Origin: a virus
Reading direction: 5' to 3' (one strand)
Virus record (IMG/VR): IMGVR_UViG_3300046002_010164
Location: 1-36,171 of that record
DNA: 36,171 bases
Shown here: one piece after another, positions 2,497 to 24,595 of the stretch
Layout of the letters: every line of letters starts with the position of its first letter
How positions within the stretch are numbered: position 1 is the stretch's first letter
Position numbers and translations under genes: made by a program
Notes under the pieces: model-generated
The model's input: the letters and a program-made list of their open reading frames with translations, nothing else
Told to the model about the DNA's origin: nothing
The model's database searches: none

Positions 2497-4542
2497 TCAT
2501 TCAGCCAACGACTTCAACAATGCATCCCGTCCATCTTGGTAGAACTCAATGTCCAGCTTTGTCGCCATTTCATCCGACAGATCAAATAATTGTTTGCGAC
2601 AAGATACCGGCAGCAATAAAGCCTTGGCCCCTTTCTCAACAGCAATTTCAGCCAGAGACACTGCGTTGTGAATCGGCTCAATAGTGCCACCAAGGGTGAC
2701 TTCACCGACTACAATCAAACCGCCTCGCACTGACTTTTTCAGCAGCGCGCCAGACAAAGCAATGAGGGCTGCAACGCCTGTTTTTGAACCCGACTTTGCA
2801 GCATCAAAGCCACGTAGCTGGACAGAAAATTCATGCGAGCGCGGATCGCGGTCACCGACCAGCTGCATGGCGCGGGCATAGAGGTTTTGCTCTGCACAGC
2901 GAATCGATTCTCTGAAAGCCTGAGGCACAGGGTTGTTAAGCACTCTCACACCACTGCCTGGCCCCTCATTCACCTCAAGTCTGAAAAGGCCCGGGTGCTC
3001 ATCTTGACCGCCAGGGGAAATGGTCCAAACTTGACCGCACTCCAACGGTTCGTCGCCAATTCCACCCTGGCTTTGCAGTTCAGGCGTAGATACAAATTTC
3101 TCAACACCCTCTGTGCCGATGGTGTAGCTGAAATGTGTGTTTCTGAACTCTGCAGCGCCAATGCGTTTTTGCTGCTCTTTGACGCGACGGCGAACTTCCA
3201 ATGCCAACCTTACTGCCCACTCCAAGTCTTCCGGCGAGACCTTGCTGTTGACGTCGGGGTACATCAGCTTTAACAAGCCGCTAACGGTTTTATTTACCCC
3301 ATTGATGTCACGCCCGGAAAGCGCACCACCCCAAAATACTTGCCCCTGAAGTGAAGAAACACGACTCTGGTTTCTCAGCTGCGTAAAGCATTCCGACAAA
3401 AAGTCGCTGACCAAGCCGAAATGTTCTGTAAACAACGAGGGGTTCAGCTTGGGTACATCCCAGCCTGGCAAGAAGCAGTGGATGCGGTCCATGAACGCTG
3501 TGTCATCACGCATTTCTGGTGGCAGTGGGCTAAACAGGTGACCTACCCGTTGCTGGTGCTCCACATCCACATCGAAGTTACCCACCAGCACTATGGAACC
3601 ATCAGCACGGATGCTTTCTTTGCCACGAGAGAATTCACCGCTCTCCATGTAGCCCTTCATGATGTTGACGCCATCCTTTTGGTCAAAGGAAACCCCGGAT
3701 ACCTCATCAAAACAAACCACGTCGTATTGGCAGACAAGACCACGTTGCCCATTGGAATTGTTCACAAACATCCGCGCTACTGTGGCTTTGCCGCCAGAGA
3801 TCAAATGAGCGTAGGGTGAAACCTGTTGAAACAAGTGAGATTTACCAGTGCCACGCGGCCCCAACTCCACCAGGTTGTAATTGCGCTCAACGAATGGAAC
3901 CATTCGCAGAAACAGCGCATCCTTGGCCCGTTCAGACAAAGTCGCAGGCTCAAAACCCACACTGCGCAACAACAAGTCGCGCCATTCAGCAGTGGTGAAG
4001 CTTTCACGGCCCTTAGCCAGCACATCCAACACTTCACGTTTCGACAGCTGGATCGCACGCAATGACTCGACGCCAAATGGACGACCACCTTTTTCTTGAG
4101 CTATGGAGGCGTCGTACTCCAAGGTGATTTCTGCATAAAAACCACCCGTCAGCATGCGCTCATTGTCTTTGACCATCTCTGGTGTCAAGCGCACATCGTT
4201 CAGACGTAAGCTGGGCAAGGTGGCAACGTAAGAGTCGGTTTTGGAATCCAAACGAGCCGTGATGATGTCAATGATCTTGACTGAACCAGATTCACGGGCC
4301 CGCGCCTTGAACAGCTCTTCCTCTCCGGCTTTGACAGTTCTGGAGCTCAACTGGCGCTGAACAATTTCAATGCCTTCTTGGATTTCAGCTTCATCCGTGG
4401 TCGCGCAGTAACGTCCGAGTAAAAACTCCACTACGTAGGTTGGTACCGGAAATTGTCGACTGAAGGTTCGAACCAAATCTTTCCTGACCACATAGCCCTC
4501 AAAAGCTTTGGTCGACTTGCTGTCCAGTTCATCGAGTTGCAT
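2497..4542 (-). CDS. brxL: BREX AAA+ protein with Lon-like C-terminal domain, BrxL
   Basis: 681 residues, the usual BrxL size. The N-terminal region is followed by an AAA+ core with a Walker A (GPRGTGKS, about residue 230) and Walker B (VVCFDEV, about 280). The last 140 residues form a Lon-protease-like fold (SGSKTGVAALIALSGALL, then GGLIVVGEVTLGG). The Lon catalytic lysine expected just after the GG turn is not apparent here, where GGTIEPIHN is read instead, so proteolysis is unlikely; this fits published views that BrxL is a DNA-binding ATPase required for phage restriction rather than for methylation. It starts 9 bases after the pglZ stop, with AAGGA formed at the pglZ stop codon serving as ribosome binding site. 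It is the last core gene of the BREX operon. Confidence 0.9.
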   Translation of the reverse strand: MQLDELDSKSTKAFEGYVVRKDLVRTFSRQFPVPTYVVEFLLGRYCATTDEAEIQEGIEIVQRQLSSRTVKAGEEELFKARARESGSVKIIDIITARLDSKTDSYVATLPSLRLNDVRLTPEMVKDNERMLTGGFYAEITLEYDASIAQEKGGRPFGVESLRAIQLSKREVLDVLAKGRESFTTAEWRDLLLRSVGFEPATLSERAKDALFLRMVPFVERNYNLVELGPRGTGKSHLFQQVSPYAHLISGGKATVARMFVNNSNGQRGLVCQYDVVCFDEVSGVSFDQKDGVNIMKGYMESGEFSRGKESIRADGSIVLVGNFDVDVEHQQRVGHLFSPLPPEMRDDTAFMDRIHCFLPGWDVPKLNPSLFTEHFGLVSDFLSECFTQLRNQSRVSSLQGQVFWGGALSGRDINGVNKTVSGLLKLMYPDVNSKVSPEDLEWAVRLALEVRRRVKEQQKRIGAAEFRNTHFSYTIGTEGVEKFVSTPELQSQGGIGDEPLECGQVWTISPGGQDEHPGLFRLEVNEGPGSGVRVLNNPVPQAFRESIRCAEQNLYARAMQLVGDRDPRSHEFSVQLRGFDAAKSGSKTGVAALIALSGALLKKSVRGGLIVVGEVTLGGTIEPIHNAVSLAEIAVEKGAKALLLPVSCRKQLFDLSDEMATKLDIEFYQDGRDALLKSLAE

Positions 4543-4551: not shown

Positions 4552-6882
4552 TTATCCGCCGACAGTCGTCGCCATTTTTTGAATCACATTGCCCTGCGCA
4601 TCAATGACCACCACCACGGCAGCAGCTCCCAATTGGTCATCGTCAATGATGGCCAAACTGGCCTTGCCATCCACCAGCAGCTTGGGTTGCGCCACAAGAC
4701 TGCTGGATGCCTGCGCGGGCTTGGTCCGAATATCCAAGCTCAAGTCAGCTGACTGTGACGACACCAATCCCGTACACCGCAGCCCCTTCCAGGTCACGGA
4801 ATCAATGGTGGCTTTGGCTTGGCCAACAGCGCTCGTGCTCGTTTCCAGGGTCAAAACAGGCACCCAACACTCTTGGAAGCTGATGCCCCCATGCGCGTAA
4901 TCGCTGCCTGCGACAAAGGATGAAACCCCAGGCGCATAAGCCACTTGGACGTCATTGCACCAATCCCAGCCAAAGGTCAGCGGCGTGCCATGGGCAGAAT
5001 CCTTCAACACAGCGCACCGCCCCCAGCGTGTTTCAGCTTGATGCTTTGGCAATTCTGACTTGGGCAAACCACCAGGCAGCAGCAACCAACCGTGATCGGT
5101 CACGATGCGAAACCTTTTCCACCCCGATTGCTCAAGCTCCATAATTCGCTCTACCACCTGGGCTAACTGAACCTCCATGTCACGGGCCAGTCTGATACCG
5201 TGTTGGTGACCATAGTGGTCCAAATCCCCAGTCTCGGTCCAAGCAGCACCAGCTGCATTTCCAGTCTCGTGCTTGTCTAAGAACTGCACACCATGGTCTG
5301 ACAACAATTTTCTGAAGTTGTGAGTTGAAAGCGGCTTGCCATCAGCAGATACACGCGGCTGGAACTCTGTGTCTGCTGGGTCACCGCTGATCCAACGTGC
5401 CACGGGAGAACACCACGCTTTGCCGGATGCCGTCACCGAAGGCATGCTGGTCCATGCAGCATCCAAAGTTGTCGTTCCAACACTTCCCAACAGCTCTTGC
5501 AATCGTGTGGCAACGTCATAGCGCAGACCATCCACAAAAACAGTGCAAACACCCGCAACGGGTTCTGCCCCATTGGCTTGAGCACCGACACGCAAACCGC
5601 CTGCCGTCTTGACGGCGTCTTGCAAACGCTTGGCCGACTCTTCAAGCCAAGGCAAATAGACCGCACGCAATGCCGATGAAACAGCGTCGACATCCACCTT
5701 AGTGGTGACTGCAGCCAAAGCGCGCATGGCGGCGGCATCTACTTGCCAGCCCGTTTGTTGGTAACTCAAAGCCAATGCATCGGGGGTCGCTCCCACGGGC
5801 AACTGTTTGCTTGCTGAAGCCACCTTGGCCAAAAACTCCAGGGCCGTGGCCAAAGGTGCTTGACCCATGCGCGCCCAAAGCCAACTGCGACGAACCCCAT
5901 GATCTCTTTCGATCTTGGCAATTTCATCTCTCGCCTGGTCCGGCATCATGGGGCCGCACGCTGCCAAGGCGTAACGCAAAGAAGACTCTCCACCTTCATT
6001 TGCCTGCGGATAACCCTCTTGTCCCTCAAAGCCATCAAACAAATTGCGCTGGGGCGGCTGAACCTGAGCCAACAAATCAAAAATCTTCGGAAAGCTTCCA
6101 AACGAATCTTTGTACAGCTCAGACACAGCAGCCCACTGGCCCTCTGCTTTGGCCAACTTCTCTGCAGCAACCAAAACACCATCTGCTTCAGGGTCAAAAC
6201 CAAAATCAGCTCTAGCCCGCTTATCAAAAATTATCCACTGCTGTTTCGACCACTTAGCATGGGCAGCCTCAGGGTCATTCATCCAAACCAACAAATCACG
6301 GGTCGGATTAGGGGCCAACAAACTGTTCAGCCAGGCAGCATTGATCGAACGCCCCATAAGTTCAGCCACTGGACGCTCCAACAAAACACCTGCTTCAACA
6401 GCTTGAATCAAGGCCTCTTGTGTTGCTCTATCTTGAGCCACATCCAAGCCCAGACCACCATTTTTCGAGGATAGAAAGGCCCCAATGGTCCAGTCTTTCG
6501 CACTAACCTGGCTCCAGAAAACACCACGGTATTGAAGTTCAGCAAGCGGTTGTAACTCGCGTGAGCAAGACTCTATGGCCCTCAGTTCAGAACGTCCAAC
6601 ACCGGGCAAATAAATCACCGGAATCCCAGTTCTAGTAGCGTCATCCAGAAAACCTGCTGTGGCACATTTCAACCAAATCGCCGGACCTGAGTGAAGTGCA
6701 GGATTAAACGGCCCCAATTTATATACATGGGGCATTAACGCCATCAATGGCGCAATGACTGATTCCCATTGTTTGTCTTTGTCAGGCCACAAAATAACCG
6801 CAGGCGGAACGGCAGCTTGACTGTTCACCGCCGCCGCTTTGTTTAAGGCCGATACAAGTCGGTCAAGTAACTTATCGCTCAT
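4552..6882 (-). CDS. pglZ: BREX alkaline-phosphatase-fold protein PglZ (type B-like)
   Basis: 776 residues. The C-terminal half carries the alkaline-phosphatase-superfamily pattern seen in PglZ: a metal/nucleophile segment (FVDGLRYDV, about residue 449), TDHGW at about 595 and AHGGISFQE at about 663. The N-terminal third has a strand-helix layout without recognised motifs. PglZ is essential for BREX in studied systems, but its substrate is unknown. The ATG at 6880-6882 overlaps the stop of the Hsp70-like gene as ATGA, so translation of PglZ should be coupled to that gene. The assignment to the 'type B' class rests on overall sequence style and is less certain than the family call. Confidence 0.9.
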   Translation of the reverse strand: MSDKLLDRLVSALNKAAAVNSQAAVPPAVILWPDKDKQWESVIAPLMALMPHVYKLGPFNPALHSGPAIWLKCATAGFLDDATRTGIPVIYLPGVGRSELRAIESCSRELQPLAELQYRGVFWSQVSAKDWTIGAFLSSKNGGLGLDVAQDRATQEALIQAVEAGVLLERPVAELMGRSINAAWLNSLLAPNPTRDLLVWMNDPEAAHAKWSKQQWIIFDKRARADFGFDPEADGVLVAAEKLAKAEGQWAAVSELYKDSFGSFPKIFDLLAQVQPPQRNLFDGFEGQEGYPQANEGGESSLRYALAACGPMMPDQARDEIAKIERDHGVRRSWLWARMGQAPLATALEFLAKVASASKQLPVGATPDALALSYQQTGWQVDAAAMRALAAVTTKVDVDAVSSALRAVYLPWLEESAKRLQDAVKTAGGLRVGAQANGAEPVAGVCTVFVDGLRYDVATRLQELLGSVGTTTLDAAWTSMPSVTASGKAWCSPVARWISGDPADTEFQPRVSADGKPLSTHNFRKLLSDHGVQFLDKHETGNAAGAAWTETGDLDHYGHQHGIRLARDMEVQLAQVVERIMELEQSGWKRFRIVTDHGWLLLPGGLPKSELPKHQAETRWGRCAVLKDSAHGTPLTFGWDWCNDVQVAYAPGVSSFVAGSDYAHGGISFQECWVPVLTLETSTSAVGQAKATIDSVTWKGLRCTGLVSSQSADLSLDIRTKPAQASSSLVAQPKLLVDGKASLAIIDDDQLGAAAVVVVIDAQGNVIQKMATTVGG

Positions 6883-8705
6883 ACTGAAGGGCTAGATGGA
6901 TGATTCGGCCTGTAAGCAGTGCCACTGGAGCAAATGCACAAAGGGTCGTTTGATGATCGGCCACACATGACACACGGCTCGTAATACAAACGTTCATCCT
7001 CTTGGATTTGAGGCGGCCGTTTTCCTGTGTGAGTCCAGAAATAGGTTGGATCTGCTCTGTACATCACCTCGCCCGGGACCAGGCTGTTGTCCTCGCGATT
7101 AGCAAGGTTTGAGCGAGCAACCAAGTCACCAGCTTCGTGCCCCCCACCTGATGAACCTTGGCCATCCATGATGGCTGAATTGATCCATCCTGAATGAGCG
7201 CCGGGTGTAGCCAAGGCGAACTCTAGATCATGTACCTGTGCAACAACCTGGCCTTTTTGGTTCATTGACCACGCATTTAAATTCAGGACCAAGTTCTCAT
7301 CAATGCTCAAGTCAAGTTCGATTCGTTCGCGGAAAGGGTTTGCTTTTGAATCAACTTTCAAAAGCATGTTGCATAGTGGCCTCCGCTTATCGTCGGGAAG
7401 AACACGTGGTCCAGGGCGATGCGGACTCACGACATTGAACTTACCAAACCCATCTGTTGGATCAACGCAATAAAGCGAAAAACGTTCTTTACGCTGCTCA
7501 CGCTCCAAGGGCATTTCTACCCCAGCAGTAAGAAGAGGCAAATAAGAGTTACGCGCAAGCGTCAACTCGATATTTTTAGCCAAGTGCAGCCTGGCTTCAT
7601 CATGAGCTACCCAAGCAGCCCCATCTGCAATCGCCGAAGCACTGTTTTTCGAAACATGCACACGGCCTGGACCAAAAAGTTCATCTAAACGATTTTTGAC
7701 CATTGGCATGTTGACCATACCGCCCGTAGCCAAACAAAGCTCGATAGAAGCGGTGGAATATCCTTCACGCTCAAGCAAACGTTCAATACGACCTACTCCG
7801 TTGCTTATCAGGCCACCCACGATGTCCTGCAAATCCTCCCTGGACAAAGTGACATCCAACGTAGATTTATTTTCACTTTGATAGTAAGGATCAACATAGA
7901 CAGTCCAATTGCTTTTGCCACTGAGCTGAATTTTTGCTTGCTCACACTCATGCAACAAACGTTTTCTTGCCTCAGGCAGGACATCAACGTCATCTCCTAG
8001 GCCTAATTGTCGAATTGATCTTTTTTCGACCTCATTGCGCAGTGCTTCATCGAAGATGTCCCCGCCAACGTCGTCAGTGCCATCGTTAGCAACTTGAACC
8101 AATAGACCATCCAGAACACGGCAAAGAGTCAAATCAAGTGTGCCGCCGCCCCAATCGAAAACCAGGAATAATTTTCCGTTGTAACGCCGAACCAAATCAT
8201 CGGTAGCTTGTGAATTACGCAAGTAGCCATAAAGAGCAGCCAGGGGCTCGTGAACAAATTGCACAACACTCATACCGGCCTGCCTGAACGCCTGGCGCAA
8301 CAGTGCACGTCGCCTACCCTCCATGTTTACAGGAATCGTCGCGACGACACGATTCATCTTCAAATTTTGGCCGACTCTGGTTTGCAACACGAACTGCCGA
8401 ACGTGCTCCAAGACGTGCTCGACCATCTTGACCGGATCTCTTCTGACGCCATCAATGATGAATTCTTCACGGCCCAACAAGGTTTTTGGCGAGCGTACGG
8501 TACTGCCCTGGACACCCAAACCTGCACTTGTCAGTTTGTCGTGAGCCTTACGACCGACCTCAACCTTACCCCCCTCAAAACTCACAACAGATGGTATGGG
8601 CTGTTCATTGTCTAGAAAAGTAATGACCGAATCACCCACGACCACTGAGGCGAGGCTGTTCGTTGTGCCAAAGTCGAATCCGAGAACAACTTCTTTATTA
8701 GGCAT
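6879..8705 (-). CDS. Hsp70/actin-fold ATPase with C-terminal Cys cluster, embedded in BREX operon
   Basis: 608 residues from the ATG at 8705. GTG (8714) and ATG (8711) are also in frame, but GGGAG lies 8 bases before the 8705 ATG and is too close to the others. The nucleotide-binding motifs of Hsp70 are clear: phosphate 1 (FDFGTTNS, about residues 10-17), phosphate 2 (FDWGGGTLDL, about 185) and the adenosine motif (LATGGMVNMP, about 328). After about residue 380 the protein does not resemble the DnaK substrate-binding domain or lid; it has a beta-rich segment and ends with a possible zinc ribbon (CVMCGRSSNDPLCIC, about 580-595). It overlaps the upstream coiled-coil gene and shares ATGA with pglZ. 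A housekeeping DnaK is excluded by these differences. It is probably a dedicated ATP-driven chaperone or switch for this BREX variant; that role is inference. Confidence 0.85.
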   Translation of the reverse strand: MPNKEVVLGFDFGTTNSLASVVVGDSVITFLDNEQPIPSVVSFEGGKVEVGRKAHDKLTSAGLGVQGSTVRSPKTLLGREEFIIDGVRRDPVKMVEHVLEHVRQFVLQTRVGQNLKMNRVVATIPVNMEGRRRALLRQAFRQAGMSVVQFVHEPLAALYGYLRNSQATDDLVRRYNGKLFLVFDWGGGTLDLTLCRVLDGLLVQVANDGTDDVGGDIFDEALRNEVEKRSIRQLGLGDDVDVLPEARKRLLHECEQAKIQLSGKSNWTVYVDPYYQSENKSTLDVTLSREDLQDIVGGLISNGVGRIERLLEREGYSTASIELCLATGGMVNMPMVKNRLDELFGPGRVHVSKNSASAIADGAAWVAHDEARLHLAKNIELTLARNSYLPLLTAGVEMPLEREQRKERFSLYCVDPTDGFGKFNVVSPHRPGPRVLPDDKRRPLCNMLLKVDSKANPFRERIELDLSIDENLVLNLNAWSMNQKGQVVAQVHDLEFALATPGAHSGWINSAIMDGQGSSGGGHEAGDLVARSNLANREDNSLVPGEVMYRADPTYFWTHTGKRPPQIQEDERLYYEPCVMCGRSSNDPLCICSSGTAYRPNHPSSPSV

Positions 8706-9942
8706 TTTCATCACTCCCTAAGCTTTTGAGTTCAGAACGCAAAGCATCAACCACTCGCTCAGCGCGTTGGACCATGACGTTGATGTTCGGCGTATTGCTA
8801 CGTAAAGCAGACAAGCCGACCTCCAGCATCTCCGTACTTTCATTCAATCGACGCACCAAACGACCACGCAACGATTCAATCTCGTGGCTCAAATGCATTG
8901 TTTCTGCAGCATGGCGTGTTGTCAGTTCGGTCAGGGCTTGGGTACTCTGCTCACGCGAATTGATCAACTGAGCATCACGATCTACAAGATCACTGCGCAA
9001 CTGAGTAATTTCAGCATTTAGTGCTTCGACTTGGACGCGAGTCGATTCCAGTTCCCTGACTGAATGGGCTTGAGCGTTGCGTGCATCCATCATTTGCTGA
9101 CGCCACCGCTGGCCAAGCCATCCAAGCACAGCAGAGTCGTCCAGGCTCGTCAATGCCCGAATCTTGTCGGCATCGGTTTCCAGTGTTCGCCCAGACTCCT
9201 GCCATGACACCTGCATCAACAGGCCAGCCAACTCCTCTAAATTCAAACTTCGGTGGCAATAAAACCATGTCACCAAAAGATTGACCGCGTTGCGTCGTCC
9301 CGCGTGGACTTCAGCAGGCTTGAAAGCGACCTCCTTGTCGTCTTCGGCTTTTTTCGGGACCGGCTGCCACGTTGACAGCATTGTTAGGGCCTCAAATGGG
9401 GACGGTGCGTCAGGTAGGTGACGCACTGTCGCTTGCAAACTCTCTGAAGAGAATGCTGGGTGCTTCAACATCACACCCATCACGAACGATGTGAACGCCT
9501 CTCTCAAGGCCGGAAAACCGACCACTTCACGACTGATAAGCAAAAGTTCACGCGGAACAGCCAACCATTCATCTGCTTGTGCTATGCCCAATAAACGCAA
9601 AACAGCTTCGTCATTGAGCCGAGGATTTTCAGCGATCTGACGCTCTACCTTTGATGACAGCGAGACACGCTGCCCCTTACGTGAATAGACATAAGAGATG
9701 AACTGTTCAAGCGTCTCAATTTCAGGCTTCGACTTCTTCGGGGTGGACTTCTTCTCATCAGGACTGCCAATCTCCTCCTGCTGGACCATCACAACGGGTG
9801 CAGACTCAGCGTCTTGTGACACAACAGAATCGATTTCTGCTTCTGTACGTGGACCTTGCACCGGCATTGGTTCTGAAAGTCTGGTTTGCCCAGTCGTTAC
9901 ATTGGTTATTTGAACTTGTCGTTTTTCGTGGTGTTTGCTCAT
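8698..9942 (-). CDS. Coiled-coil protein of the BREX-embedded Hsp70 cassette
   Basis: 414 residues, family not recognised. Residues 1-75 are polar and probably disordered, including a Lys/Ser/Pro-rich run (SPDEKKSTPKKSKPEIETL). Residues about 80-285 are helical with several conserved-looking hydrophobic segments and tryptophans. Residues about 290-370 form a long coiled coil rich in heptads (ELESTRVQVEALNAEITQL, then HEIESLRGRLVRRL), and a final amphipathic helix closes the protein. There is no signal peptide or membrane segment, so it should be cytoplasmic. Its ATG overlaps the stop of the zinc-finger gene as ATGA, and its own stop lies within the start region of the Hsp70-like gene, so the three proteins are likely made together. 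It could be an oligomerising scaffold or a nucleotide-exchange/J-like partner of the Hsp70 protein, although no HPD motif of DnaJ is visible. Confidence 0.75.
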   Translation of the reverse strand: MSKHHEKRQVQITNVTTGQTRLSEPMPVQGPRTEAEIDSVVSQDAESAPVVMVQQEEIGSPDEKKSTPKKSKPEIETLEQFISYVYSRKGQRVSLSSKVERQIAENPRLNDEAVLRLLGIAQADEWLAVPRELLLISREVVGFPALREAFTSFVMGVMLKHPAFSSESLQATVRHLPDAPSPFEALTMLSTWQPVPKKAEDDKEVAFKPAEVHAGRRNAVNLLVTWFYCHRSLNLEELAGLLMQVSWQESGRTLETDADKIRALTSLDDSAVLGWLGQRWRQQMMDARNAQAHSVRELESTRVQVEALNAEITQLRSDLVDRDAQLINSREQSTQALTELTTRHAAETMHLSHEIESLRGRLVRRLNESTEMLEVGLSALRSNTPNINVMVQRAERVVDALRSELKSLGSDENA

Positions 9943-11051
9943 GATTTACCTAATTTTTCTAGCATGGCTTGAGCCCAAGCGCTGGCATCAGCCGTACTCG
10001 ACCACCTGCGTGCTATTTGACGTGCTTGGCGCATCGATTCTTGATCACCACACAGCATCAGGGCCTCTGTAGCCAACAAGGATCGCTTGAGATGGTCATA
10101 GCCACCGGGGAATCTTTTGTATCTGCTCACAATATCCTGAGCGTGCTCTTTCAGCTGGACTTGCCCCAAGCTCGCGTCCTTGAGTAAATACAAGGTGTCT
10201 TGATCCGTCAGTAAATTTTCAACCGGCCCCAAGGTAATTTGAACTTGTTCAAAATGCCATGGGTCACACAGCAACAAACCTTTGAAAATAGCAGCCGTAT
10301 GGCGCAAAGCCCCCTCAGGGGCCAAGACTTGAGCATCGCCAAAATGGTTGAAATGGAATGCCACCAACGCTCTGATGCTGTTTGATAGTGGCCGATCAAA
10401 CCCCGATAAAACGTCATTTGCCTGAAGAAACTTTTCCGTGTACTGATCAATTGGAATGCCCGAATCTGGCGCACGCTCTTTAGCCATGACACCGTAGAGG
10501 TATTGGCTAACGCCATGTGCATACATGCCTGCGCTCGTAAAGGATTTGCAATCTTGATTGAATCCTGCAATCGCATCGATACTGAGACTCCTATCTCGCG
10601 CCATGCGCAAGAATGCGGCCTCAACCCCCTTTAAGTCAGAGACATCTGCAACGCAAAAATCCAAAGCACAGCGAGTCATTGCTCCCGAAATACCCAGTTC
10701 AACTTCGACAAATTCCCTTCTCAAAGATGCCAGTCTTTTACCCAATTCAGCTGGGTCAATTGACAGCCCATTGAATCGACATACAAGCGCGTCCTCAACT
10801 GCAACATCTTTCGACTGAAGAGGCATCATCACCTTCAAAGGCAATTGGCCAACAGATTGGCCACGTACCATCAATGTGGGCTGCCTTAAGGGATGAGACT
10901 CAAACCGGTGACGTCTTAGAGACTCCAAATCACCGAAATGCTTATTGCATTGTTCGCAATAAAAGCGTTTGGGTGGCGAAGGCGTAAAGACGACATCGTC
11001 CAAGCCCACGGGCTCATGAAACTCTTCGTAGCCAGTGTGCCAAAACCCCAT
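9939..11051 (-). CDS. Protein with N-terminal C2H2 zinc finger, BREX-embedded cassette
   Basis: 370 residues from the ATG at 11051. The frame is open further upstream to 11147, but that part overlaps the end of pglX and reads as non-protein, and GGGAGAAG lies just before 11051. Residues about 30-55 hold a single classical C2H2 finger (FYCEQCNKHFGDLESL followed by the two His of RRHRFESH, spacing C-x2-C-x12-H-x4-H), which is uncommon in bacteria. The rest (about 60-370) is mainly helical with a repeat-like feel (FHFNHFGDAQVLAPEGALRH, LLATEALMLCGDQESMRQA) that might be TPR-like, but I cannot show periodicity. It starts 2 bases after the pglX stop and ends in an ATGA overlap with the coiled-coil gene. 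It could bind DNA or act as a protein adaptor; function is unknown. Confidence 0.75.
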   Translation of the reverse strand: MGFWHTGYEEFHEPVGLDDVVFTPSPPKRFYCEQCNKHFGDLESLRRHRFESHPLRQPTLMVRGQSVGQLPLKVMMPLQSKDVAVEDALVCRFNGLSIDPAELGKRLASLRREFVEVELGISGAMTRCALDFCVADVSDLKGVEAAFLRMARDRSLSIDAIAGFNQDCKSFTSAGMYAHGVSQYLYGVMAKERAPDSGIPIDQYTEKFLQANDVLSGFDRPLSNSIRALVAFHFNHFGDAQVLAPEGALRHTAAIFKGLLLCDPWHFEQVQITLGPVENLLTDQDTLYLLKDASLGQVQLKEHAQDIVSRYKRFPGGYDHLKRSLLATEALMLCGDQESMRQARQIARRWSSTADASAWAQAMLEKLGKS

Positions 11052-11053: not shown

Positions 11054-14000
11054 TCAGCTTCTCCCAGCCTTGATATGAGCTTCTTGCTTCTCCGCCAAAG
11101 ATAAATGATGATCGTTGATACGCTCCCCTTTGTGCACATTGAACCAAGGCGCACTCTCCACATCCTTACCCCGGTCTTTGTCCCAGGTGATATTGAGCTT
11201 GGGTTTTTTGTTATGGCGCAGGACTTCAGCGGCCATGAAGGGGCGAATGTTCATGCGAACGCCGTCGTTCAAGTCGGGGTTCCAGCCGATGGGTTGTTCT
11301 GCCAGAGGCTTCCAGCGCACGAAGATGTCGTAGGGCTTTTCACCCTCCAAGATCAGTTCCAAACGACGCTTGAGGTCGAGTGCTGCCGCCAGTCGGGTTG
11401 GGGCTCCATCCACACCATCGCGCACGCCACCTTCTTGCTGGCGAATCCATTCACCTAGGTAAGTGTGGATCAGGCGCTCCAGATTTTTAGTGTCGAGCTT
11501 GTGGTAGTTGACCAGCGCAGCAAAGCCGTCTTTCAGGCCGTCCCACACATGCCAGATGAAGGGCCGGTGGTGGAAGCGTTTGGCGTGCTGCTCGAAGAAC
11601 TTTTCGCGCAACCAGGTGTCCAACCCCTTGCCGGCCCAGTCGGCGTCAGTCAGCAGCTTATCGAGAACTGCGGGCTTCCAGCTGCCGGGCTGCATTGTTT
11701 CCCATGCAGCAATCAAGAGCTTGAGCAAGCGGTCATGTGCTGCAGGCTCGCCGCGCACCGAGGGAAGGCAGACAATGCCGTCGTCGTCGGTGTGCTCAGC
11801 CAGTTTGTCGCACTGAGCAATCAATGAGCGGGCTTCGTCGGACAACTCCATGGACGCATCGGTTTCGGCGGGCCATAGGTAACCTGCCAAGCGGGAGACT
11901 GCAACTTGCAAAGGATCAGTCGAGTGCTGAGGGTGGCCATGGAACAACCACTGTGATGGGTCATCGGAATATGGTTTGGGAAGTCCATTTGGCAATTGCT
12001 CGTTAGCTATTCGACACCAACGTTCCTCATCAAAAACAACCTTCGTAAGACTGCCGGGAACCACTTTTACCGATTGATTTAGGCGCCTAACTTCTTCGGC
12101 GTATTCACTTGAGTGGGTGTAGCACCACAGAGCAGGCAACAATTCAGAGCGCGTTGGAATTAAGGGTGAAACGGAGTCATCAAAAGGCTGCCCAGTGTAA
12201 AGGGTCACGTTTAAAGCACGCATCCTCTGAATTGCTATTCCTCGTTTCCCAACAACTGATTTTGGAGGGAAGTTGTGTGCAGTTGGGCTCTTGTGAAGCG
12301 CACCTGATTCCTGTTCCCAACGAATAAAGTCTGTTCGACCCGTGTAAAAGTCCTGTGCTATTGGTGCTTGTTGCATGAGCTCCCAAACAGTGCCTTTCGA
12401 GGCCACCTCCCAATGACGAATAACATAGCGATTGTCATCAGCTGTAACAAGTCCCTGCCAAGCTCTGGCTTTCACTTGTAGCAGACTAGAAGAATCTACC
12501 AATTCAAAAGCAACAATTGAGTCTGGATTTTTTGACTGACCCTTTTGACTCACACTAACCAATGCACCATCTCGTAGTAATGCCGCTTTCTCCAACGCCA
12601 CCTTGGGTGCACTCGCATCCACACCACGCAACTCGAAACCTTCCACAGCTGGTGCATTGGTCTGGGTCAGCAAAATGATGAATGCCCCTGCCGCCTGCGG
12701 ACTGTCGAACCCTCCCTCGCCCAAGCGTGCCAGCAAGTTCCACTGCACTCGCTTTAGCAACGATTCCCGCTGTTTCTTGTAACTACCCAAAAACAACCAG
12801 TTCTGCGGCATCACAATTTGCACTACGCCCGCACCTTTCTCCTGGCCCAACTCCAGACACCGCTCCAAGAACACATTGGCCAAGTCGTTCTTGGCGTCTG
12901 CGTAATGCGTTTCGCAGTATTCCTTCAAGTTGTCGTTTTGCTTCCCACGCGCCAAGTAAGGCACGTTGGTGATGACCAAGTGATATCGGTCATCCAACAA
13001 GCTTGCCGCATCGAGCAAGCCGAGAGCTGTCAACGCGTTGTTCCAAGTGGCAGAGGCATCTTCCAACAAGTCAGGTTGCTGCTCGGCTTTTAGTGCCTGC
13101 TGCAACAAGTCGGACAGCAATTTGTAATCGGCCGTGAACAAGTCACCACTTGATTTACTTGTATCGAGCAAGCTTCCCAATATGGGCGCTTGCGTGAATG
13201 CTTTGTGCAGTTGCCGCAAGCCATTCTTCAGGTCATCGGCATTCTCAACATGGTCTGGCACCAGTGCCGTCCACTCAGCGGACTTAGCACCCACCTTCAA
13301 ACCGCAGCAGGCGATGTTGGGTGCAGGCATGTCTGCTCGCACACCCAGCGGGTCACCGTTTTCATCTGAGAAGCGCCAGGCAGCCAAGGCCAAGGCAAAC
13401 ACCGCAATCTCCACGCAACGTGCATCTAGCTCAAGGCCGTGCAAGTTGTCTTGCAGCACCAGGTCCACCGCATCCATAGCGGTCAGGCCTTCGGCAGCCA
13501 TGCGCATGGGCACCAGCAGCAAGAAGGCCGCTACCAAGAAGTGACCCGAGCCGCAGCAAGGGTCCAACAGCTTGAATTTTTCTAAGGTGTCGGGCCAGCC
13601 TTCGAACTTGCCCGCAGCGGGCGTGCCGTCGTCCAAGGTGCGCAAATAGGTCAGCGGCACCGGGCAAGTTTGGCCGGGGTGGCGTGTGGTCCACCAGGCA
13701 CCCAGCGAGTTGTGCAACAAGAAGTCCACCATGTAGGGCTCGGTGAAGAGCTGAGTCACGGCAGGCAGCTCGTCTGCGCCGATCTTGACCTCGGAGGCGT
13801 TGACTTCGTCTTTGCGTTTGGCTTGCCAGAACTGGTACACCCAGCCCAAACTGTCACTGGCTTTGAAAACTTCTTCGGGCAAGGCGGCCAGCAGCGTTTC
13901 CAATTTGCGCTGGTGTTCAATGGCAAAGGCCATGTCAAAAACGGGGTGCTGTGGCTTGAACACTTGCGGGAGCATGCGAGCGGCCAGCTTGCCTGCCAAG

Positions 14001-14413
14001 TCCCAGCCACTTTTAGCACCCAGGTTGGTGGCTGGATCTTGCGCCATTTCTTCGCATTCAGCCAGGGTCACAGGCGCACCGGGCTCCCAGAGCAGTAAAC
14101 CGTTTTCTGCCAAGAAGCGGGCAAACAGCATGCGGTGCCAGTGTTCGTAAGCGGTTTCCCACACCAGGTGGCGAATGCTTTGGCTGTCGTCTGCCGCTTT
14201 GACATCGCCCAGGGCTCGGCCGTGCGCGCGCAAGCGACGGCGCAGGGCTTTTTGTGGGTCAGTCAAATAGTCAGGGGCTTTTCCCTCACCCACTGCCAAC
14301 TGAGCAAGGGCAGCGGTAGCGGCCACCTCAGCCACGTCGCGGGCGGCTTTGACGGTGTTTTCTAGCTGCGTGCGCAGGGGTTTCGGCAAGGGCTGATTGT
14401 TGAGAGAACTCAT
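11054..14413 (-). CDS. pglX: BREX adenine-specific DNA methyltransferase PglX
   Basis: 1119 residues, the usual length for PglX of type-1-like systems. It carries N6-adenine methyltransferase motif I (LDPCCGSGHF, about residue 286) and a motif IV that reads ITNVPYL (about 481) in place of the standard NPPY. The C-terminal 500 residues would be the target-recognition region (RGIAIQRMRAL, then a helical tail with the RLELILEGEKPYDIFVRWKPL region). PglX methylates the host at a non-palindromic site so that the BREX complex ignores it. It lies 27 bases after brxC and 2 bases before the zinc-finger gene. The ATG at 14411-14413 has only a weak purine-rich site upstream, so translation may depend on read-through from brxC. 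Confidence 0.92.
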   Translation of the reverse strand: MSSLNNQPLPKPLRTQLENTVKAARDVAEVAATAALAQLAVGEGKAPDYLTDPQKALRRRLRAHGRALGDVKAADDSQSIRHLVWETAYEHWHRMLFARFLAENGLLLWEPGAPVTLAECEEMAQDPATNLGAKSGWDLAGKLAARMLPQVFKPQHPVFDMAFAIEHQRKLETLLAALPEEVFKASDSLGWVYQFWQAKRKDEVNASEVKIGADELPAVTQLFTEPYMVDFLLHNSLGAWWTTRHPGQTCPVPLTYLRTLDDGTPAAGKFEGWPDTLEKFKLLDPCCGSGHFLVAAFLLLVPMRMAAEGLTAMDAVDLVLQDNLHGLELDARCVEIAVFALALAAWRFSDENGDPLGVRADMPAPNIACCGLKVGAKSAEWTALVPDHVENADDLKNGLRQLHKAFTQAPILGSLLDTSKSSGDLFTADYKLLSDLLQQALKAEQQPDLLEDASATWNNALTALGLLDAASLLDDRYHLVITNVPYLARGKQNDNLKEYCETHYADAKNDLANVFLERCLELGQEKGAGVVQIVMPQNWLFLGSYKKQRESLLKRVQWNLLARLGEGGFDSPQAAGAFIILLTQTNAPAVEGFELRGVDASAPKVALEKAALLRDGALVSVSQKGQSKNPDSIVAFELVDSSSLLQVKARAWQGLVTADDNRYVIRHWEVASKGTVWELMQQAPIAQDFYTGRTDFIRWEQESGALHKSPTAHNFPPKSVVGKRGIAIQRMRALNVTLYTGQPFDDSVSPLIPTRSELLPALWCYTHSSEYAEEVRRLNQSVKVVPGSLTKVVFDEERWCRIANEQLPNGLPKPYSDDPSQWLFHGHPQHSTDPLQVAVSRLAGYLWPAETDASMELSDEARSLIAQCDKLAEHTDDDGIVCLPSVRGEPAAHDRLLKLLIAAWETMQPGSWKPAVLDKLLTDADWAGKGLDTWLREKFFEQHAKRFHHRPFIWHVWDGLKDGFAALVNYHKLDTKNLERLIHTYLGEWIRQQEGGVRDGVDGAPTRLAAALDLKRRLELILEGEKPYDIFVRWKPLAEQPIGWNPDLNDGVRMNIRPFMAAEVLRHNKKPKLNITWDKDRGKDVESAPWFNVHKGERINDHHLSLAEKQEAHIKAGRS

Positions 14414-14440: not shown

Positions 14441-17400
14441 TCACAGCGACACGGGGCCTTGTGTGAGCTTTTCGCTCAACAAAGCTCCGACCTGGGTCAA
14501 CCAGGCCTTGAGTTCAGCTTCGTCGTTGAGGGTGCGCTTGGGCAGATCAACCCGGATCACATTAGGCTTGAGCAATTGCACTGCTGCATGGCGTGCAGCC
14601 TCAAAACGGCTGGGCAGAGCCTGGGTTTTTGACACCCAGTGGTCCAGATCGCAGTCATCTAGGGCATCTTGCAGTTGTTCTGGCGTGCCGAGCTGCACAG
14701 CATCTGGCGCAGTCAGGTGATGCTTGTTGCTCAGGTCTTCGCGCTGGGTGTCGGTCAGCTTGTTCCACTCGACATCGGCAAAGAGTTGGCTTTGCTGCTG
14801 GGCATAGGCCTGGCCGAAGGCGTCGAGCTTAGCATTTAGGGCTTGGCGCAACAAGTCAACCGTTTTATCAAGTAGCGGGCGAACGGCGTCAGGATCAGCC
14901 AGAAGACTGCGCTGCGAATCGATGGCGTCCAGCTCGGCCTTCAGGTAGGCATAAGGTCCCAGGGTTTGCGCGTGACGCAGCAATTCCTTGAGCTGACTCC
15001 AAACGGGCAGGCGCTTGGCAATGGCTTCTGCGGTTTGTCCCCATTCTTTGGAAAGAGTCAGCAACTCGTCGTATCGATTGAACAGTTCCAACAGCTGTGC
15101 GTTGCCAGACTGGGATTCAATGGCCTCAACAACGGTGAGCTTGGGTGACTCAGGTGCAGGAGCATTCCCCCCTGCTTTACTGGCCTGGTCACGCAGTTTG
15201 GCCAGCAGAGCAGGCACTTTGGCCTGTTCTTCTTTGGGTTGGCAGGGCACGCCAACTTGGCTGAAAAGCTGCCTGATTTTGATGAGCTGCGGCGGTGTAA
15301 TGGTGATGGATTCGCGCTGAAAACTGGCCTGGGTTAGGCGAGCACGATCCAAGCTTTTCACATCCACGGCCTTGCTCGTGGCATCAGTCGCTTTGATGTG
15401 GCCAGCGGCCAGCAAAGCATAGAGCGCACCGTCGATGGCATCACGGGGCCAGCCATAAGGAGGGCTTTCAAACTGCTCCCGTATGTCTGAGCCTTTTTTG
15501 TTCAGCCCAATGAAGGCCAGCAGCTTTTGGCACACGGGGTGTTTGTCTGCCTCTTGGTTGTGGCCTACCGCCTTCATGGCCTCCAGGTTGCCCTTACGGG
15601 CTTCGTCCAGAACTTTGCTCCACTGGTCGTGGTCAGCGGCGTCAAACTGGTTGTACAAACGAATCACAGACGACTTGGCTGCACGGTTGATGCGATCGGC
15701 CAGGTCTTGGCCGTCAGTGGCTTCTTGACCACCCGCCATGAACAAGCGCGCACCCACCATCAATTTGTCGAGCAGGTCAGCCAATTCTTTCTCGGCGTTG
15801 CGCTGACGGCTTTCCATGGAGCGCTGGGCGTCACGCCCCTCTTCGGTCGATGGACTGCCCTTCTTTTGCAATGTGTTGCGAGCAGCTTCCAGAGCAACAA
15901 TGGCGTTGGTCAACCCTGTTTTGTTTTCCGCTGGCAAAAAGGCGAACAGGGTGGGGTTGTCCGCGCCCTTGGCTTTGGCCTCTGCAATCAATGAGCGCTC
16001 TTCGGTTTGCCAGCCGTCTTGCACCCACAGGAAAAGGTTTTTGTCATTGTCACGCGGCAGGGTTTCGTCGTAGCTGGGCGTGAGCTTGCGCTCAACGTTG
16101 TCTTTGCCCTGCGTAACACGGACTTTTCTCAGGACTTCGCCATAACGGGCTTTCAGCAGTTCTGTCCGCTTTTGCTCTACACGCTGGGGCGAAGACTTGA
16201 AGTCAGCCTCTTGGGCTCGGTATTCGTCGTACCAAGCGCTGGATTCACGGGTTTGCAAGCGGTATTCGGTGCCCGTACCACCCGCCAAAGCCATGACCAG
16301 GCGGTCTTTGTTTTGCAGCTGGTCTAACAAGGTGGGCAGATTTTTTCTGAGTTCTGCGGAGCCAGCGGAAAGATCGGTCACCAACAAGTCGGCCAACACG
16401 TCTTCCGTGGCTTTGAGCCCCAAGTCCACTGCCGCATCTGCTGGCAGTTTGTTGATGAGGTAAATCAACTTGAGCAGTTTTGCTTTGAGTTGACTGTCTG
16501 CATCGCCCGCTGCGAATTTTTGAACGTTTTCAAAAACCTCTTTGGGCAACTGGGCGGTCGATACCAAGTTGGGGGCAATTTGATCGTACAAAAAGTCACC
16601 AGAAACCACATGACCCAAAGGCTCATTCGCGGTGGCCAAAACAGCCTCATGCACCACACGCAATTGGCTGCGCAACTGAGACACGGTACCCGTGGTGTCG
16701 ATGGTGCGCAGGACACGCTCCCAAAAACGACGGCGGACTGGCAGCAGCGGGTAATCCGACGTCATCTGTGACTCGTCTTCGGTCACATGTTCCAACTTGG
16801 TGCCCCGCAAATGGCGAGAAATCTCGCCAAGGTTAGCTCGCCAAATGGTCTCGATCTGAGGTTTTGCTGATGGCTTCTTCGCCAGGATGATTTGGCGGGT
16901 AACGTTCTCCACGTCCCAGTCGCCCAACATGACTTGCACTGGAAAGCGGCCCATGAGTCGCTGCAAATTAGGCATACCAGAAAGGGCCGATTGGCCCGTG
17001 CCCACAAACAACAACTGTCCGTTGAACTTCTTGGAAAGTGTCTCGGTCACTTCTTGGATTTGGAAAGCTTTTTCCGCGTCAGTGCCGATGTATTGCTGCA
17101 CCTCGTCCAAAACCACCAAGGTCAAGGGGAACTTGCCGTTATTCAACAAAGTGGCCTCAATGGCTGCGACCATTTGTTCGCTGGTGATGTCGGTGACCTG
17201 CGGAAATTGCGCTTTCAATAACTGCCGTACTTCCGCTTCGGAAGAGCCAAGACCTGGTTGGACCTTCAATAGCGCTTTGGCCAAGTGTCCTACATACATG
17301 TGAGGAAGTTCTTGCTCCAGGGTTTTACCTACTGTTTTCAGCTCTGCTTGTAATTTTTCGACCAGATGTTCTGTTTGCAACCAGAGCACAAACTGCGCTT

Positions 17401-17899
17401 GGTTGTATTGCCCAGGCAAACCTTTGGATTTGTAGATGATGCTCAGCAATGCCAAGCGCACTTTGTCGCCCGCACCTGCACCCAACTTGCCCGCAGCTGC
17501 ATGTAACCCACCCAGGCGCTTGCCCTGTGTCGTGAGTTCTTTCAGGTGTTCAATAACGCCGTCTGGCAATTTGGCAATGCTTCTGGCGGCTGCGCCATCC
17601 GCAAACGTGTAATCGGTCCACAAAGTTCGTAGCATTTTGGCCAAATGGGATTTACCGCTGCCGTAAAAGCCAGAGACCCAAACGCCGGGTTGCTCAGTCT
17701 TGGAGCTCAAGTTCATCAAGAACTTGTCCAAGATGGTCTCAATGCCTTTTTCGTACTGACCGTCACACACGAAGGTTTCAAGTTCATAGCGCAGAATCGA
17801 CTGAGCCGACTCGGAATGGTCCTCGGATACTTCAGCCACCCCGTTGTTCACCAAGCGGTTGTCTTGCGGTGCTTTGTTGTAAATGTCCCTGTTGATCAT
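14441..17899 (-). CDS. brxC: BREX large P-loop ATPase BrxC
   Basis: 1152 residues from the ATG at 17899. ATG at 17905 and TTG at 17926 are also in frame, but an AAAAGAG element is best spaced for 17899 and the protein then begins MINRDIYNK, as BrxC proteins commonly do. Walker A (SGFYGSGKSHLAKM) lies near residue 78 and Walker B (LVVLDEVQQY) near 263. A long C-terminal helical portion with possible coiled coils follows (around ESRQRNAEKELADLLDKL). BrxC is a core protein in all BREX types and is needed for both methylation and restriction. It directly follows brxB. Confidence 0.92.
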   Translation of the reverse strand: MINRDIYNKAPQDNRLVNNGVAEVSEDHSESAQSILRYELETFVCDGQYEKGIETILDKFLMNLSSKTEQPGVWVSGFYGSGKSHLAKMLRTLWTDYTFADGAAARSIAKLPDGVIEHLKELTTQGKRLGGLHAAAGKLGAGAGDKVRLALLSIIYKSKGLPGQYNQAQFVLWLQTEHLVEKLQAELKTVGKTLEQELPHMYVGHLAKALLKVQPGLGSSEAEVRQLLKAQFPQVTDITSEQMVAAIEATLLNNGKFPLTLVVLDEVQQYIGTDAEKAFQIQEVTETLSKKFNGQLLFVGTGQSALSGMPNLQRLMGRFPVQVMLGDWDVENVTRQIILAKKPSAKPQIETIWRANLGEISRHLRGTKLEHVTEDESQMTSDYPLLPVRRRFWERVLRTIDTTGTVSQLRSQLRVVHEAVLATANEPLGHVVSGDFLYDQIAPNLVSTAQLPKEVFENVQKFAAGDADSQLKAKLLKLIYLINKLPADAAVDLGLKATEDVLADLLVTDLSAGSAELRKNLPTLLDQLQNKDRLVMALAGGTGTEYRLQTRESSAWYDEYRAQEADFKSSPQRVEQKRTELLKARYGEVLRKVRVTQGKDNVERKLTPSYDETLPRDNDKNLFLWVQDGWQTEERSLIAEAKAKGADNPTLFAFLPAENKTGLTNAIVALEAARNTLQKKGSPSTEEGRDAQRSMESRQRNAEKELADLLDKLMVGARLFMAGGQEATDGQDLADRINRAAKSSVIRLYNQFDAADHDQWSKVLDEARKGNLEAMKAVGHNQEADKHPVCQKLLAFIGLNKKGSDIREQFESPPYGWPRDAIDGALYALLAAGHIKATDATSKAVDVKSLDRARLTQASFQRESITITPPQLIKIRQLFSQVGVPCQPKEEQAKVPALLAKLRDQASKAGGNAPAPESPKLTVVEAIESQSGNAQLLELFNRYDELLTLSKEWGQTAEAIAKRLPVWSQLKELLRHAQTLGPYAYLKAELDAIDSQRSLLADPDAVRPLLDKTVDLLRQALNAKLDAFGQAYAQQQSQLFADVEWNKLTDTQREDLSNKHHLTAPDAVQLGTPEQLQDALDDCDLDHWVSKTQALPSRFEAARHAAVQLLKPNVIRVDLPKRTLNDEAELKAWLTQVGALLSEKLTQGPVSL

Positions 17900-17922
17900 G
17901 GTCATTGCTCTTTTGGTTTTGT

Positions 17923-18492
17923 TCAATTCGAATCGTTGGCGGTCAACGGAATGGCCAGGTAATTCCAGCCGTCGCGTGCGTCCAGAAGTCTGTAGGTGTG
18001 GCTATCGGGGTGATGTTCACCCGGGAAAAAGACCAACAGCCGGCCTTGAATGACATCTTTGATGCCTTCTACAACGGTAGATACCCGTGCCAGCCCAAAC
18101 AGACTTCCAACCCCCAGCAACGCCACGACGGTGTTGTTGTCGGATGCATGTTGTATCTGCTGCTTGAGCTGATCAATCAACTCATTGACGAATAGCGTCA
18201 ATTCGCCTGTTTGGTAACCGGCTAAGTCTTCAGGGGATTCAAAGTAGGCGTCGCGGTACTCTTGCTTCGCCATCCATTCTGGAAAGGCGTTGGTCACATC
18301 AATCAACAACCATTTCTTTTGGGCTTGTTGAGTGGCCAGCTGGAATTCACCAACATTCGCTCGCAGGCGCAGTTCATCAGTCTTGTCATAGACCGCAAAG
18401 ATGACACGCTGAATGCCAGCTATACCCTCTTGCCAAGGCACGCTGAGGTGCTGTTTGTAGGTGGCGGCCAGCTTGCTGACTTTAGAGCTCAT
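17923..18492 (-). CDS. brxB: BREX protein BrxB (DUF1788)
   Basis: 189 residues. The C-terminal part matches the DUF1788/BrxB signature: GVGSLFGLARVS, then GRLLVFFPGEHH and YRLLDARDGWNYLAIP. It is a core cytoplasmic BREX protein without a known enzymatic activity. The ATG at 18492 overlaps the end of the upstream BrxA-like gene by 11 bases, with an AGGA ribosome binding site inside that gene. The protein length is normal and no defect is seen. Confidence 0.92.
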   Translation of the reverse strand: MSSKVSKLAATYKQHLSVPWQEGIAGIQRVIFAVYDKTDELRLRANVGEFQLATQQAQKKWLLIDVTNAFPEWMAKQEYRDAYFESPEDLAGYQTGELTLFVNELIDQLKQQIQHASDNNTVVALLGVGSLFGLARVSTVVEGIKDVIQGRLLVFFPGEHHPDSHTYRLLDARDGWNYLAIPLTANDSN

Positions 18493-19465
18493 GGGCTAGT
18501 TCCTGGCGAATTTGATCCTCTGTGGGGGTCAAGCTGTCTGAAAAACGCACTTCTTTGACGCCCCCAGCATTGAGAAAAACGATCAGCCCCCGGTGATAAG
18601 CAGCATTCGTCAGCGATTCAATGTCTTGTTCTGAGCCGGGAATGAGCTTGCACCAACTGGAAGTAAACAGGCGCTGACCAGACATACCTTGCAAGTGCCC
18701 CATGAATAAGCACATGGCCACGTTGGCTGGCGTGATGACTGGCTGAGAGCGTGTTTTGCGATTGCGACCTGCCAAATACCCAGCAAATGTCCAAGTGCCA
18801 TTGACGTTTTGAGCGAATGATTTCAAGGAAGCCGGGCTGAAGCGGTCTGGGTGGGTCTGCACCAAAAGCGCTTCAAGGTCTTCACGACTCACATGCTGGC
18901 CATCATGTTTTTGCAAAATGAATTCTTGAGTACCAGCCAACAATGGATCTCTGGCAAGGGCCACGGTCAATGCCAACACGGGCTGAGCTTGCTCGTCGGC
19001 TGCCCACAGGCGGCGAAACATTCGGAACAAAGGGAATTTGGGGTCCAGTCCATACAAGGTCACCAGATGCCTGTATGCGAGTTCTCTCGCCTTTTTGGTG
19101 GGTTTGCCCAGTACATTCAAATCGATAACTTGATGGGCGTACTCAGGTTCATTGGCCTCTTGCGGAACCGCGGCAAGCAGCACCTTCAAGTCGTCCAGCA
19201 TCATGGTCCGGGCAGCGTGCGGGCCATTTTTCCCAAACCGGAAACCGTATTGGGTGAGCAGATCATTGCGACGGTCAGACATGCGGCTATTGCTTATTCG
19301 TAGAAAACATAAATTGTCTGTGAGCTTACCTGAGGAAAATCCAATCTTGTAGGAAGAAATGCCCTTAACTTCAGAGGCTTCGACGGTTTGAGGCTGAGAC
19401 AATTTGCAAAACCCAAAGCATCTCAAGTTACTTCTTTCATATTGCTTTACCCCACCATCGCCCAC
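18482..19465 (-). CDS. BrxA-like first gene of the BREX operon (start uncertain)
   Basis: Frame open for 327 codons from a GTG at 19465. The first 33 or so residues read as non-protein (cysteine-rich, no pattern). Credible sequence begins near ISSYKIGFSSGKL, which resembles the start of DUF1819/BrxA proteins. Candidate starts are GTG 19465 (GGAG only 2 bases away), TTG 19402 (no good ribosome site), an ATT preceded by AAGGG just before SSYKIGF, and ATG 19282 at MSDRRNDLL. The body is helical and looks like a winged-helix protein (NVNGTWTFAGYLAGRNRKTR; ESLTNAAYHRGLIVFLNAGG). Position before brxB fits BrxA, a DNA-binding protein in studied systems, but it is longer than the roughly 200-residue E. 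coli type and the family match is partial. Confidence 0.7.
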   Translation of the reverse strand: MGDGGVKQYERSNLRCFGFCKLSQPQTVEASEVKGISSYKIGFSSGKLTDNLCFLRISNSRMSDRRNDLLTQYGFRFGKNGPHAARTMMLDDLKVLLAAVPQEANEPEYAHQVIDLNVLGKPTKKARELAYRHLVTLYGLDPKFPLFRMFRRLWAADEQAQPVLALTVALARDPLLAGTQEFILQKHDGQHVSREDLEALLVQTHPDRFSPASLKSFAQNVNGTWTFAGYLAGRNRKTRSQPVITPANVAMCLFMGHLQGMSGQRLFTSSWCKLIPGSEQDIESLTNAAYHRGLIVFLNAGGVKEVRFSDSLTPTEDQIRQELAHEL

Positions 19466-21579: not shown

Positions 21580-21864
21580 GCAGGTTTAGTCATCCAGAGC
21601 CCGTGGTCATGTTGGATTTGCCAATCACGGTAAATGGACGTCCCGGGCCCTATCTCATTTGCTTAGTCATTTTTCGACACACCTGTTATTGAGAGAGACT
21701 TTGACGCGTGCCAAAAGAAAAAGTTGGAGGGGCTCCGGCAGACCTGATCGGCGAATTCAGTCGGGCAGCGATGCAGACAATGGATAGCAGCGAATAAGCC
21801 TGTGGCGCGTTTTTGAACTCCCGATTCAAAAATACTGGAAAAGGACAACAGTGATGGCCATCGG

Positions 21865-24594: not shown

Positions 24595-24595
24595 C

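Follow-up and report, generated by a model that had tools for sequence, protein, structure and literature searches.

The viral DNA record IMGVR_UViG_3300046002_010164 (hereafter the window, meaning the whole stretch of 36,171 nucleotides that was analysed) encodes a zinc-finger protein (ZnF), a coiled-coil protein (CC) and an Hsp70-like ATPase between pglX and pglZ of a bacteriophage exclusion (BREX) operon. These three genes (hereafter the trio) constitute an obligate, co-inherited unit and are not chance neighbours. We consider it probable that the trio is one transferable, Hsp70-type ATP machine for anti-phage defence, which uses the pglX-pglZ gap of BREX operons as a berth and does not need BREX.

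The three-gene cassette in the BREX operon

An initial annotation of the window proposed a three-gene cassette between pglX and pglZ, and all three open reading frames (ORFs) were confirmed at this place. The cassette, its main features and its two boundaries are located as follows.

9939–11051, minus strand: ZnF gene, 370 aa (ORF, family alignment and AlphaFold2 model)
10893–10958, minus strand: C2H2 finger of the ZnF protein, residues 32–53 (Pfam match and homologue alignment)
8698–9942, minus strand: CC gene, 414 aa (ORF and predicted structure)
8800–9135, minus strand: 112-residue helix of the CC protein, residues 270–381 (predicted structure)
6879–8705, minus strand: Hsp70 gene, 608 aa from the ATG at 8705 (Pfam HSP70 and motif alignment)
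6930–6974, minus strand: C-terminal Cys knuckle of Hsp70, residues 578–592 (family alignment)
11054–14413, minus strand: pglX, upstream boundary of the cassette (PADLOC PglX, 1574 bits)
4552–6882, minus strand: pglZ type B, downstream boundary of the cassette (NCBIfam BREX-1 PglZ type B, 869 bits)

The genes are arranged on the minus strand in the order brxA-brxB-brxC-pglX-(ZnF-CC-Hsp70)-pglZ-brxL. The complete BREX core that had been claimed is present, with BrxA, BrxB, BrxC, PglX, PglZ and BrxL all matched by models, and with all six genes in one operon the host system is of BREX type 1. Overlaps had been proposed for every junction of the cassette, which holds for three of the four: the ZnF/CC and Hsp70/pglZ junctions are true ATGA overlaps, and CC and Hsp70 overlap by 8 nt (or 14). 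Further in-frame Hsp70 starts are located at 8711 and 8714. At the pglX/ZnF junction, the genes are separated by a 2-nt gap (TGA GC ATG). A scan for promoters and terminators yielded signals at or below chance level.

Conservation and distribution of the trio

An alignment of four Hsp70 proteins was used to scan 84,980 species genomes, from which the best 80 of 227 loci were taken; together with loci from other searches, these make up the totals of up to 84 loci given below. The query consisted of Hsp70 alone, without ZnF or CC information, and iterated hidden Markov models were then used to locate ZnF and CC. Where all three genes were found, they are encoded in the order ZnF-CC-Hsp70 on one strand without exception (81 of 81 loci), while two further loci lack a recognizable ZnF, one of which ends at a contig end. 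Intergenic spacing clusters at −4 and −8 nt, and homologue distances among ZnF, CC and Hsp70 correlate with one another at 0.80–0.86.

The hosts of the trio belong to at least eight phyla, some of which are named only by the titles of metagenome-assembled genomes (MAGs); those listed are Pseudomonadota, Actinomycetota, Acidobacteriota, Nitrospirota, Gemmatimonadota, Cyanobacteriota, Chloroflexota, Myxococcota, Binatota and Campylobacterota. The trio is rare: of 399 Burkholderiales genomes, 2 carry it, one being the reference genome, and in both it adjoins pglX or a pglX remnant. No match was obtained in 50,697 phage records (E ≤ 1e-40) or in 5,426 E. coli genomes (near mode search).

The first relatives identified outside BREX are encoded on two Paenarthrobacter conjugative plasmids (Hsp70 47%, CC 24% and ZnF 30–33% identical), where IS3 elements interrupt trio genes. 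The next relatives are located on two viral contigs, which were found with an alignment of two Hsp70s and again, as the only such contigs, in a rescan with four. Viral-contig scans with a single ZnF or a single CC protein gave no match, so that the Hsp70 alignment was needed to find these contigs. Likewise, a plasmid search with CC alone returned no match although a CC homologue is present there, and single-sequence searches thus overlook this fast-changing protein. Furthermore, a fourth gene follows Hsp70 in 13 actinobacterial loci or plasmids (L002:15772-17112 and 12 others), encoding a ~450-aa coiled-coil protein with no Pfam or PDB match.

Defence systems in the genomic neighbourhood

The initial annotation argued from the tight coupling to pglZ that the trio must keep a fixed ratio to BREX proteins. 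It suggested scoring co-occurrence with BREX, and named a majority of homologues outside BREX as a refuting outcome. In a census of 10 kb around the trio in 84 loci, some of them on short contigs, trio homologues were found mostly away from BREX, which was identified in ~16 loci, two of these with mere BREX remnants. The remaining neighbourhoods include type I restriction-modification (R-M) systems (8 loci), DUF499/DUF1156/PLD-SNF2-helicase systems (10 loci), McrBC (6 loci), GmrSD (5 loci) and dynamin-PLD proteins (7 loci). DUF499 and DUF1156 have been described as 'BREX-related' genes (PMC12839542). In addition, MmeI and GmrSD are encoded beside the trio in L002, PtuB in L017 and a SIR2-Argonaute protein on the viral contig L004, and further neighbours are matched by models for Wadjet, DISARM, Septu and type III R-M. 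Unclassified neighbours that were pooled for a Pfam search belong to scattered families only.

In 23 of 79 loci, the trio has a gene from one of these systems as its neighbour within 150 nt on the same strand. It resides inside pglX-pglZ in L006, L008, L035 and others, directly follows hsdS in L069 and L078 (with hsdR further down the same gene run in L069), and is located 6 nt before DUF1156 in L019 and 23 nt before mcrB in L074 and L077. With coupling to hsdS, DUF1156 and mcrB as tight as that to pglZ, the argument for BREX dependence is not supported.

In seven betaproteobacterial loci (L007, L009, L010-L013 and L015), a 970-aa protein combining a dynamin GTPase with a MIT_C/PLD-like part (L009:4108-7026) is encoded upstream of the trio, in five of them immediately before ZnF. 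This protein may be another partner of the trio.

The pglX-pglZ gap as a berth for defence genes

Nine PglZ-B BREX loci without the trio at this site were surveyed, eight from Burkholderiales (one on a Polaromonas plasmid) and the ninth from a Pseudomonas plasmid. Between pglX and pglZ, they encode PtuA-PtuB (Septu; L138), an OLD-TOPRIM protein with UvrD (Gabija-like) and GmrSD (L140), a NERD-kinase-helicase protein (L139), an SMC-like ATPase (L141), and DUF932 gene(s) either with GmrSD (L136) or without it (L143). In L135, a gene related to another neighbour of trio loci is located just before pglZ, and the gaps of L137 and L142 contain no clear cargo, the latter measuring ~20 nt. Given these contents, the gap is best described as a berth for defence cargo, of which the trio is one of several. 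The earlier statement that the slot carries separate defence modules elsewhere is therefore supported by Septu, Gabija-like and GmrSD genes, but not by its example brxU, which is located between brxC and pglX (PMC8565348). In the Burkholderiales sample of PglZ-B BREX loci, the trio is found beside pglZ only in the locus of the reference genome. The trio is thus no core component of BREX type 1, being optional in BREX and mostly encoded outside it.

Exchange between systems and an apparent swap in PglX

Residence in BREX changes at least nine times on the Hsp70 tree (a quick tree, with support from the Shimodaira–Hasegawa-like approximate likelihood ratio test only). Closely related trio copies are associated with different systems, as in the pairs L037 (BREX) and L047 (PLD-helicase), L040 (BREX) and L038 (type I), L074 (McrBC) and L066 (PLD-helicase), and L007 (BREX) and L009 (PLD-helicase). 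Tree and pairs show repeated exchange of the trio between defence operons.

The nearest copy of the window, L006 from a Burkholderiales MAG, is collinear with it from brxL to brxB at 92–95% nucleotide identity, with the exception of a ~730-bp block of pglX (window 11993–12718) without nucleotide similarity. Residues ~550–850 of the two PglX proteins share 34–76% identity, compared with about 90–100% elsewhere, and the trio is 95% identical. It appears that PglX has exchanged its DNA-recognition part without replacement of the trio, in what would be a natural change of BREX specificity.

This comparison bears on the alternative that the trio is an accessory dedicated to BREX, which must keep a fixed ratio to PglX and PglZ. 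Such a role would be consistent with the way in which the trio overlaps pglZ (window, L006 and L008), with the 2-nt gap after pglX and with the correlation between trio and BREX protein distances (0.57–0.80 over 10 loci), but this correlation is confounded by host relatedness, the trio remained nearly unchanged although the PglX recognition domain was apparently exchanged, and most homologues lie away from BREX, with the same coupling to other systems. Stand-alone and non-BREX loci largely refute this alternative, which we regard as very improbable.

Features of the three proteins

The Hsp70 encoded in the window matches Pfam HSP70 with E=4e-39. Its invariant residues (D11-G13-T14-T15, K74, E153, D184-W185-GGGT-L190-D191, G328-G329 and P334) are, by comparison with known DnaK motifs, the predicted phosphate motifs, the catalytic Lys and Glu and the adenosine motif. 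With its catalytic motifs intact, the ATPase looks functional. The earlier suggestion of a distinct ATPase-centred module is supported. The product of the third gene combines a nucleotide-binding domain (NBD) carrying phosphate and adenosine motifs with a substrate-binding domain (SBD) and thus belongs to the Hsp70 superfamily. The family profile was aligned with DnaK structures through SBD-beta, positions 2–514 of 594 aligning on residues 3–495 of chain 2v7y_A. The lid region consists of a variable stretch and a Cys tail, and a DnaK-type lid is not recognizable. Within the tail, C578 and C581 are invariant, and most homologues contain the pattern PCxxC...CxC. The NCBIfam subfamily cut-offs for DnaK (117.6 vs 648 bits), HscA (124 vs 708 bits) and YegD were not reached.

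ZnF contains a C2H2 zinc finger, the residues of which (C32, C35, H48 and H53) are invariant across 69 homologues and the pattern of which (C-x2-C-x12-H-x3/4-H) is present in 78 of 79 ZnF proteins; the finger of the window protein alone gives a weak Pfam match (zf-C2H2, E=0.01). The AlphaFold2 model (pLDDT 93) consists of the N-terminal finger, a beta domain (~59–132) and a helical, solenoid-like C-terminus, with no fold match of E ≤ 0.001 in the PDB or among viral structures. TPR-like helical repeats were among the structural matches of ZnF, which are not reliable.

The predicted structure of CC (pLDDT 88) comprises a helical N-terminal domain, the helix 270–381 and a helix 387–413, with no PDB fold match of E ≤ 0.001. 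CC is the fastest-changing member of the trio, with a median identity among homologues of 17% compared with 24% for ZnF and 43% for Hsp70. Its best conserved part is the end of the long helix together with helix 387–413, and the C-terminal 74 residues share 29% identity, the highest in the protein. This region resembles GrpE by eye (helix, NP-loop, helix) and the same region was aligned in a profile comparison, but the likeness is non-significant (hhalign probability 2–7%; P ~0.006–0.02 for a comparison chosen after looking) and GrpE identity is not claimed.

Comparison with known systems

None of the three proteins has a significant model match in PADLOC-DB 2.0, the best being a partial match of one Hsp70 to PDC-M61B (E=6.5e-4, 16.5 bits). 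No description of the trio was found in the open-access literature, subscription papers and DefenseFinder models lying outside the search. In a 2026 survey of BREX neighbourhoods, which lists accessory nucleases as effectors, neither Hsp70 nor DnaK nor any chaperone is mentioned (PMC12839542).

Hsp70s are already known from predicted conflict systems. CnuD of CoCoNuT Types III-B and III-C is an Hsp70-like protein encoded beside McrBC-family genes (PMC11090510), and these systems share with the trio an Hsp70-like NBD/SBD protein in a defence operon as well as the presence of coiled coils. The motifs of CnuD, however, are described as degenerate, whereas the ATPase residues of the trio Hsp70 are all invariant, and the ZnF and CC families fall outside the description of CoCoNuT (PMC11090510). 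Membership in CoCoNuT type III was rejected, as the McrB neighbours of the trio carry NxxD (NTAD or NIAD where legible) and not the NxD of CoCoNuT; most trio loci are without McrB. The conflict systems centred on GAP1-N2 GTPases include HSP70, GrpE and DnaJ-domain proteins (PMC7159879) and resemble the trio in that a predicted conflict operon provides an Hsp70 together with partners of its own. The partners of the trio differ, and its recurrent annotated neighbours include no GTPase except the dynamin type.

BrxU (PMC8565348) and PARIS (PMC11341690) are likewise extra defence modules within type 1 BREX operons, but their proteins are unrelated to the trio. BrxU can work beside BREX (PMC8565348), and PARIS has the known trigger Ocr (PMC11341690). 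The DnaK-DnaJ-GrpE machinery shares with the trio a homologous Hsp70 NBD and SBD-beta, a three-part operon and the weak, non-significant resemblance between CC and GrpE. It differs from the trio, which has an Hsp70 without recognizable lid and with a Cys-knuckle tail and is patchy in its occurrence. The letters HPD are present in none of 79 ZnF proteins and in 2 of 79 CC proteins, and a J-domain in either protein was rejected.

Proposed function and alternative readings

We hypothesize a division of labour among the trio proteins in which ZnF would recognize a nucleic acid or protein complex that derives from the phage or has been altered by it. CC, probably dimeric or bridging via its long helix, would connect the ZnF sensor to Hsp70 and tune its nucleotide cycle in place of a J-protein and GrpE. 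Hsp70, equipped with a complete ATPase site, a peptide-binding beta domain and a short Cys-knuckle tail, would then pull on or dismantle the bound phage complex. A division of labour like that of DnaK-DnaJ-GrpE is an attractive hypothesis, but the trio loci yielded neither a J-domain nor GrpE and the likeness between CC and GrpE is non-significant.

A transferable defence machine is supported by the obligate three-gene unit, the repeated exchange between operons, the defence cargo in the same slot of other BREX loci and the invariant catalytic and metal residues. The genomic context also supports it: defence families were identified in 42 of 77 trio loci compared with 0 of 20 control regions (20 kb each, placed at fixed coordinates of four trio-bearing genomes), but the p-value of 2e-6 is optimistic and the contrast overstated because the tested families were picked from trio loci. 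Several observations weigh against this reading. Anti-phage function is inferred from genomic context, ~40 of the 84 loci contain no recognized system within 10 kb (some contigs being short), the trio encodes no recognized nuclease or toxin with which it would stop a phage by itself, no J-domain or GrpE is encoded in the loci, and neither ZnF nor CC has a confident fold match.

Since no nuclease is encoded and a constant partner is often missing, the trio would act either as a protein-remodelling effector or as a guard of restriction complexes. As a guard or helper, it would assemble, disaggregate or protect restriction machines, for example by stripping phage inhibitors, and act only with a partner. 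Most recognized neighbours are multi-subunit, modification-based systems, the trio is often encoded within their operons with overlaps or few-nt gaps, and a chaperone-type ATPase with no nuclease of its own would suit this task, for which PARIS, responding to the inhibitor Ocr, offers a BREX-embedded precedent (PMC11341690; PMC12839542). This role is nevertheless unlikely, considering the ~40 loci without such a partner, the lack of any protein common to the different partner systems and the absence of the trio from most examined Burkholderiales PglZ-B BREX loci.

The trio could also be a mobile operon for stress response or proteostasis, carried by genomic islands and located near defence genes because islands gather them. 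Hsp70 is a housekeeping superfamily, many loci are without a recognized defence neighbour and an integrase family is present in 6 loci, yet the trio is inserted within operons of four different restriction systems, the control regions hold none of those families, and it repeatedly uses a slot otherwise occupied by known defence genes. We regard a non-defence function as quite improbable.

A transferable Hsp70-type machine for defence, berthed in BREX without needing it, is therefore the reading that we favour. Among the functions suggested initially, an independent defence system fits best, and an assembly chaperone for BREX is disfavoured. A more far-reaching version is conceivable, if doubtful: an autonomous system family in which Hsp70 itself would be the effector, dismantling phage complexes without nuclease or toxin, and which would plug into BREX, BREX-related, type I and McrBC operons across phyla. 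If true, a complete Hsp70 chaperone cycle would serve as a portable immune module that unrelated restriction systems have acquired on many occasions, representing a new class of defence that works through a protein-remodelling ATPase and not through a nuclease or toxin. The favoured reading would account for the extra genes in the window and in related BREX loci, and would mark the pglX-pglZ gap as a defined docking slot in which to seek more defence genes.

Other features of the window

The remaining genes of the BREX operon are located as follows.

2497–4542, minus strand: brxL (profile matches)
14441–17926, minus strand: brxC (PADLOC model match)
17923–18492, minus strand: brxB (profile matches)
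18482–19465, minus strand: brxA (models match residues 53–325; the true start is probably within the ORF)

The product of the gene after brxL (311–2293) is a DUF2779 protein that matches PD-(D/E)XK weakly. In L006, a homologue is located downstream of the BREX genes, from which it is separated by extra genes. On the other side of BREX, the region 20257–36171 shows no match to the portion of the L006 contig adjoining its BREX. This region of the window, which is an IMG/VR record, encodes a VWA protein, a UmuC-like polymerase, an ADP-ribosylglycohydrolase, an M15 peptidase/endolysin-like protein and phage tail proteins, the tail and M15 peptidase/endolysin-like genes being located at the end far from the cassette.

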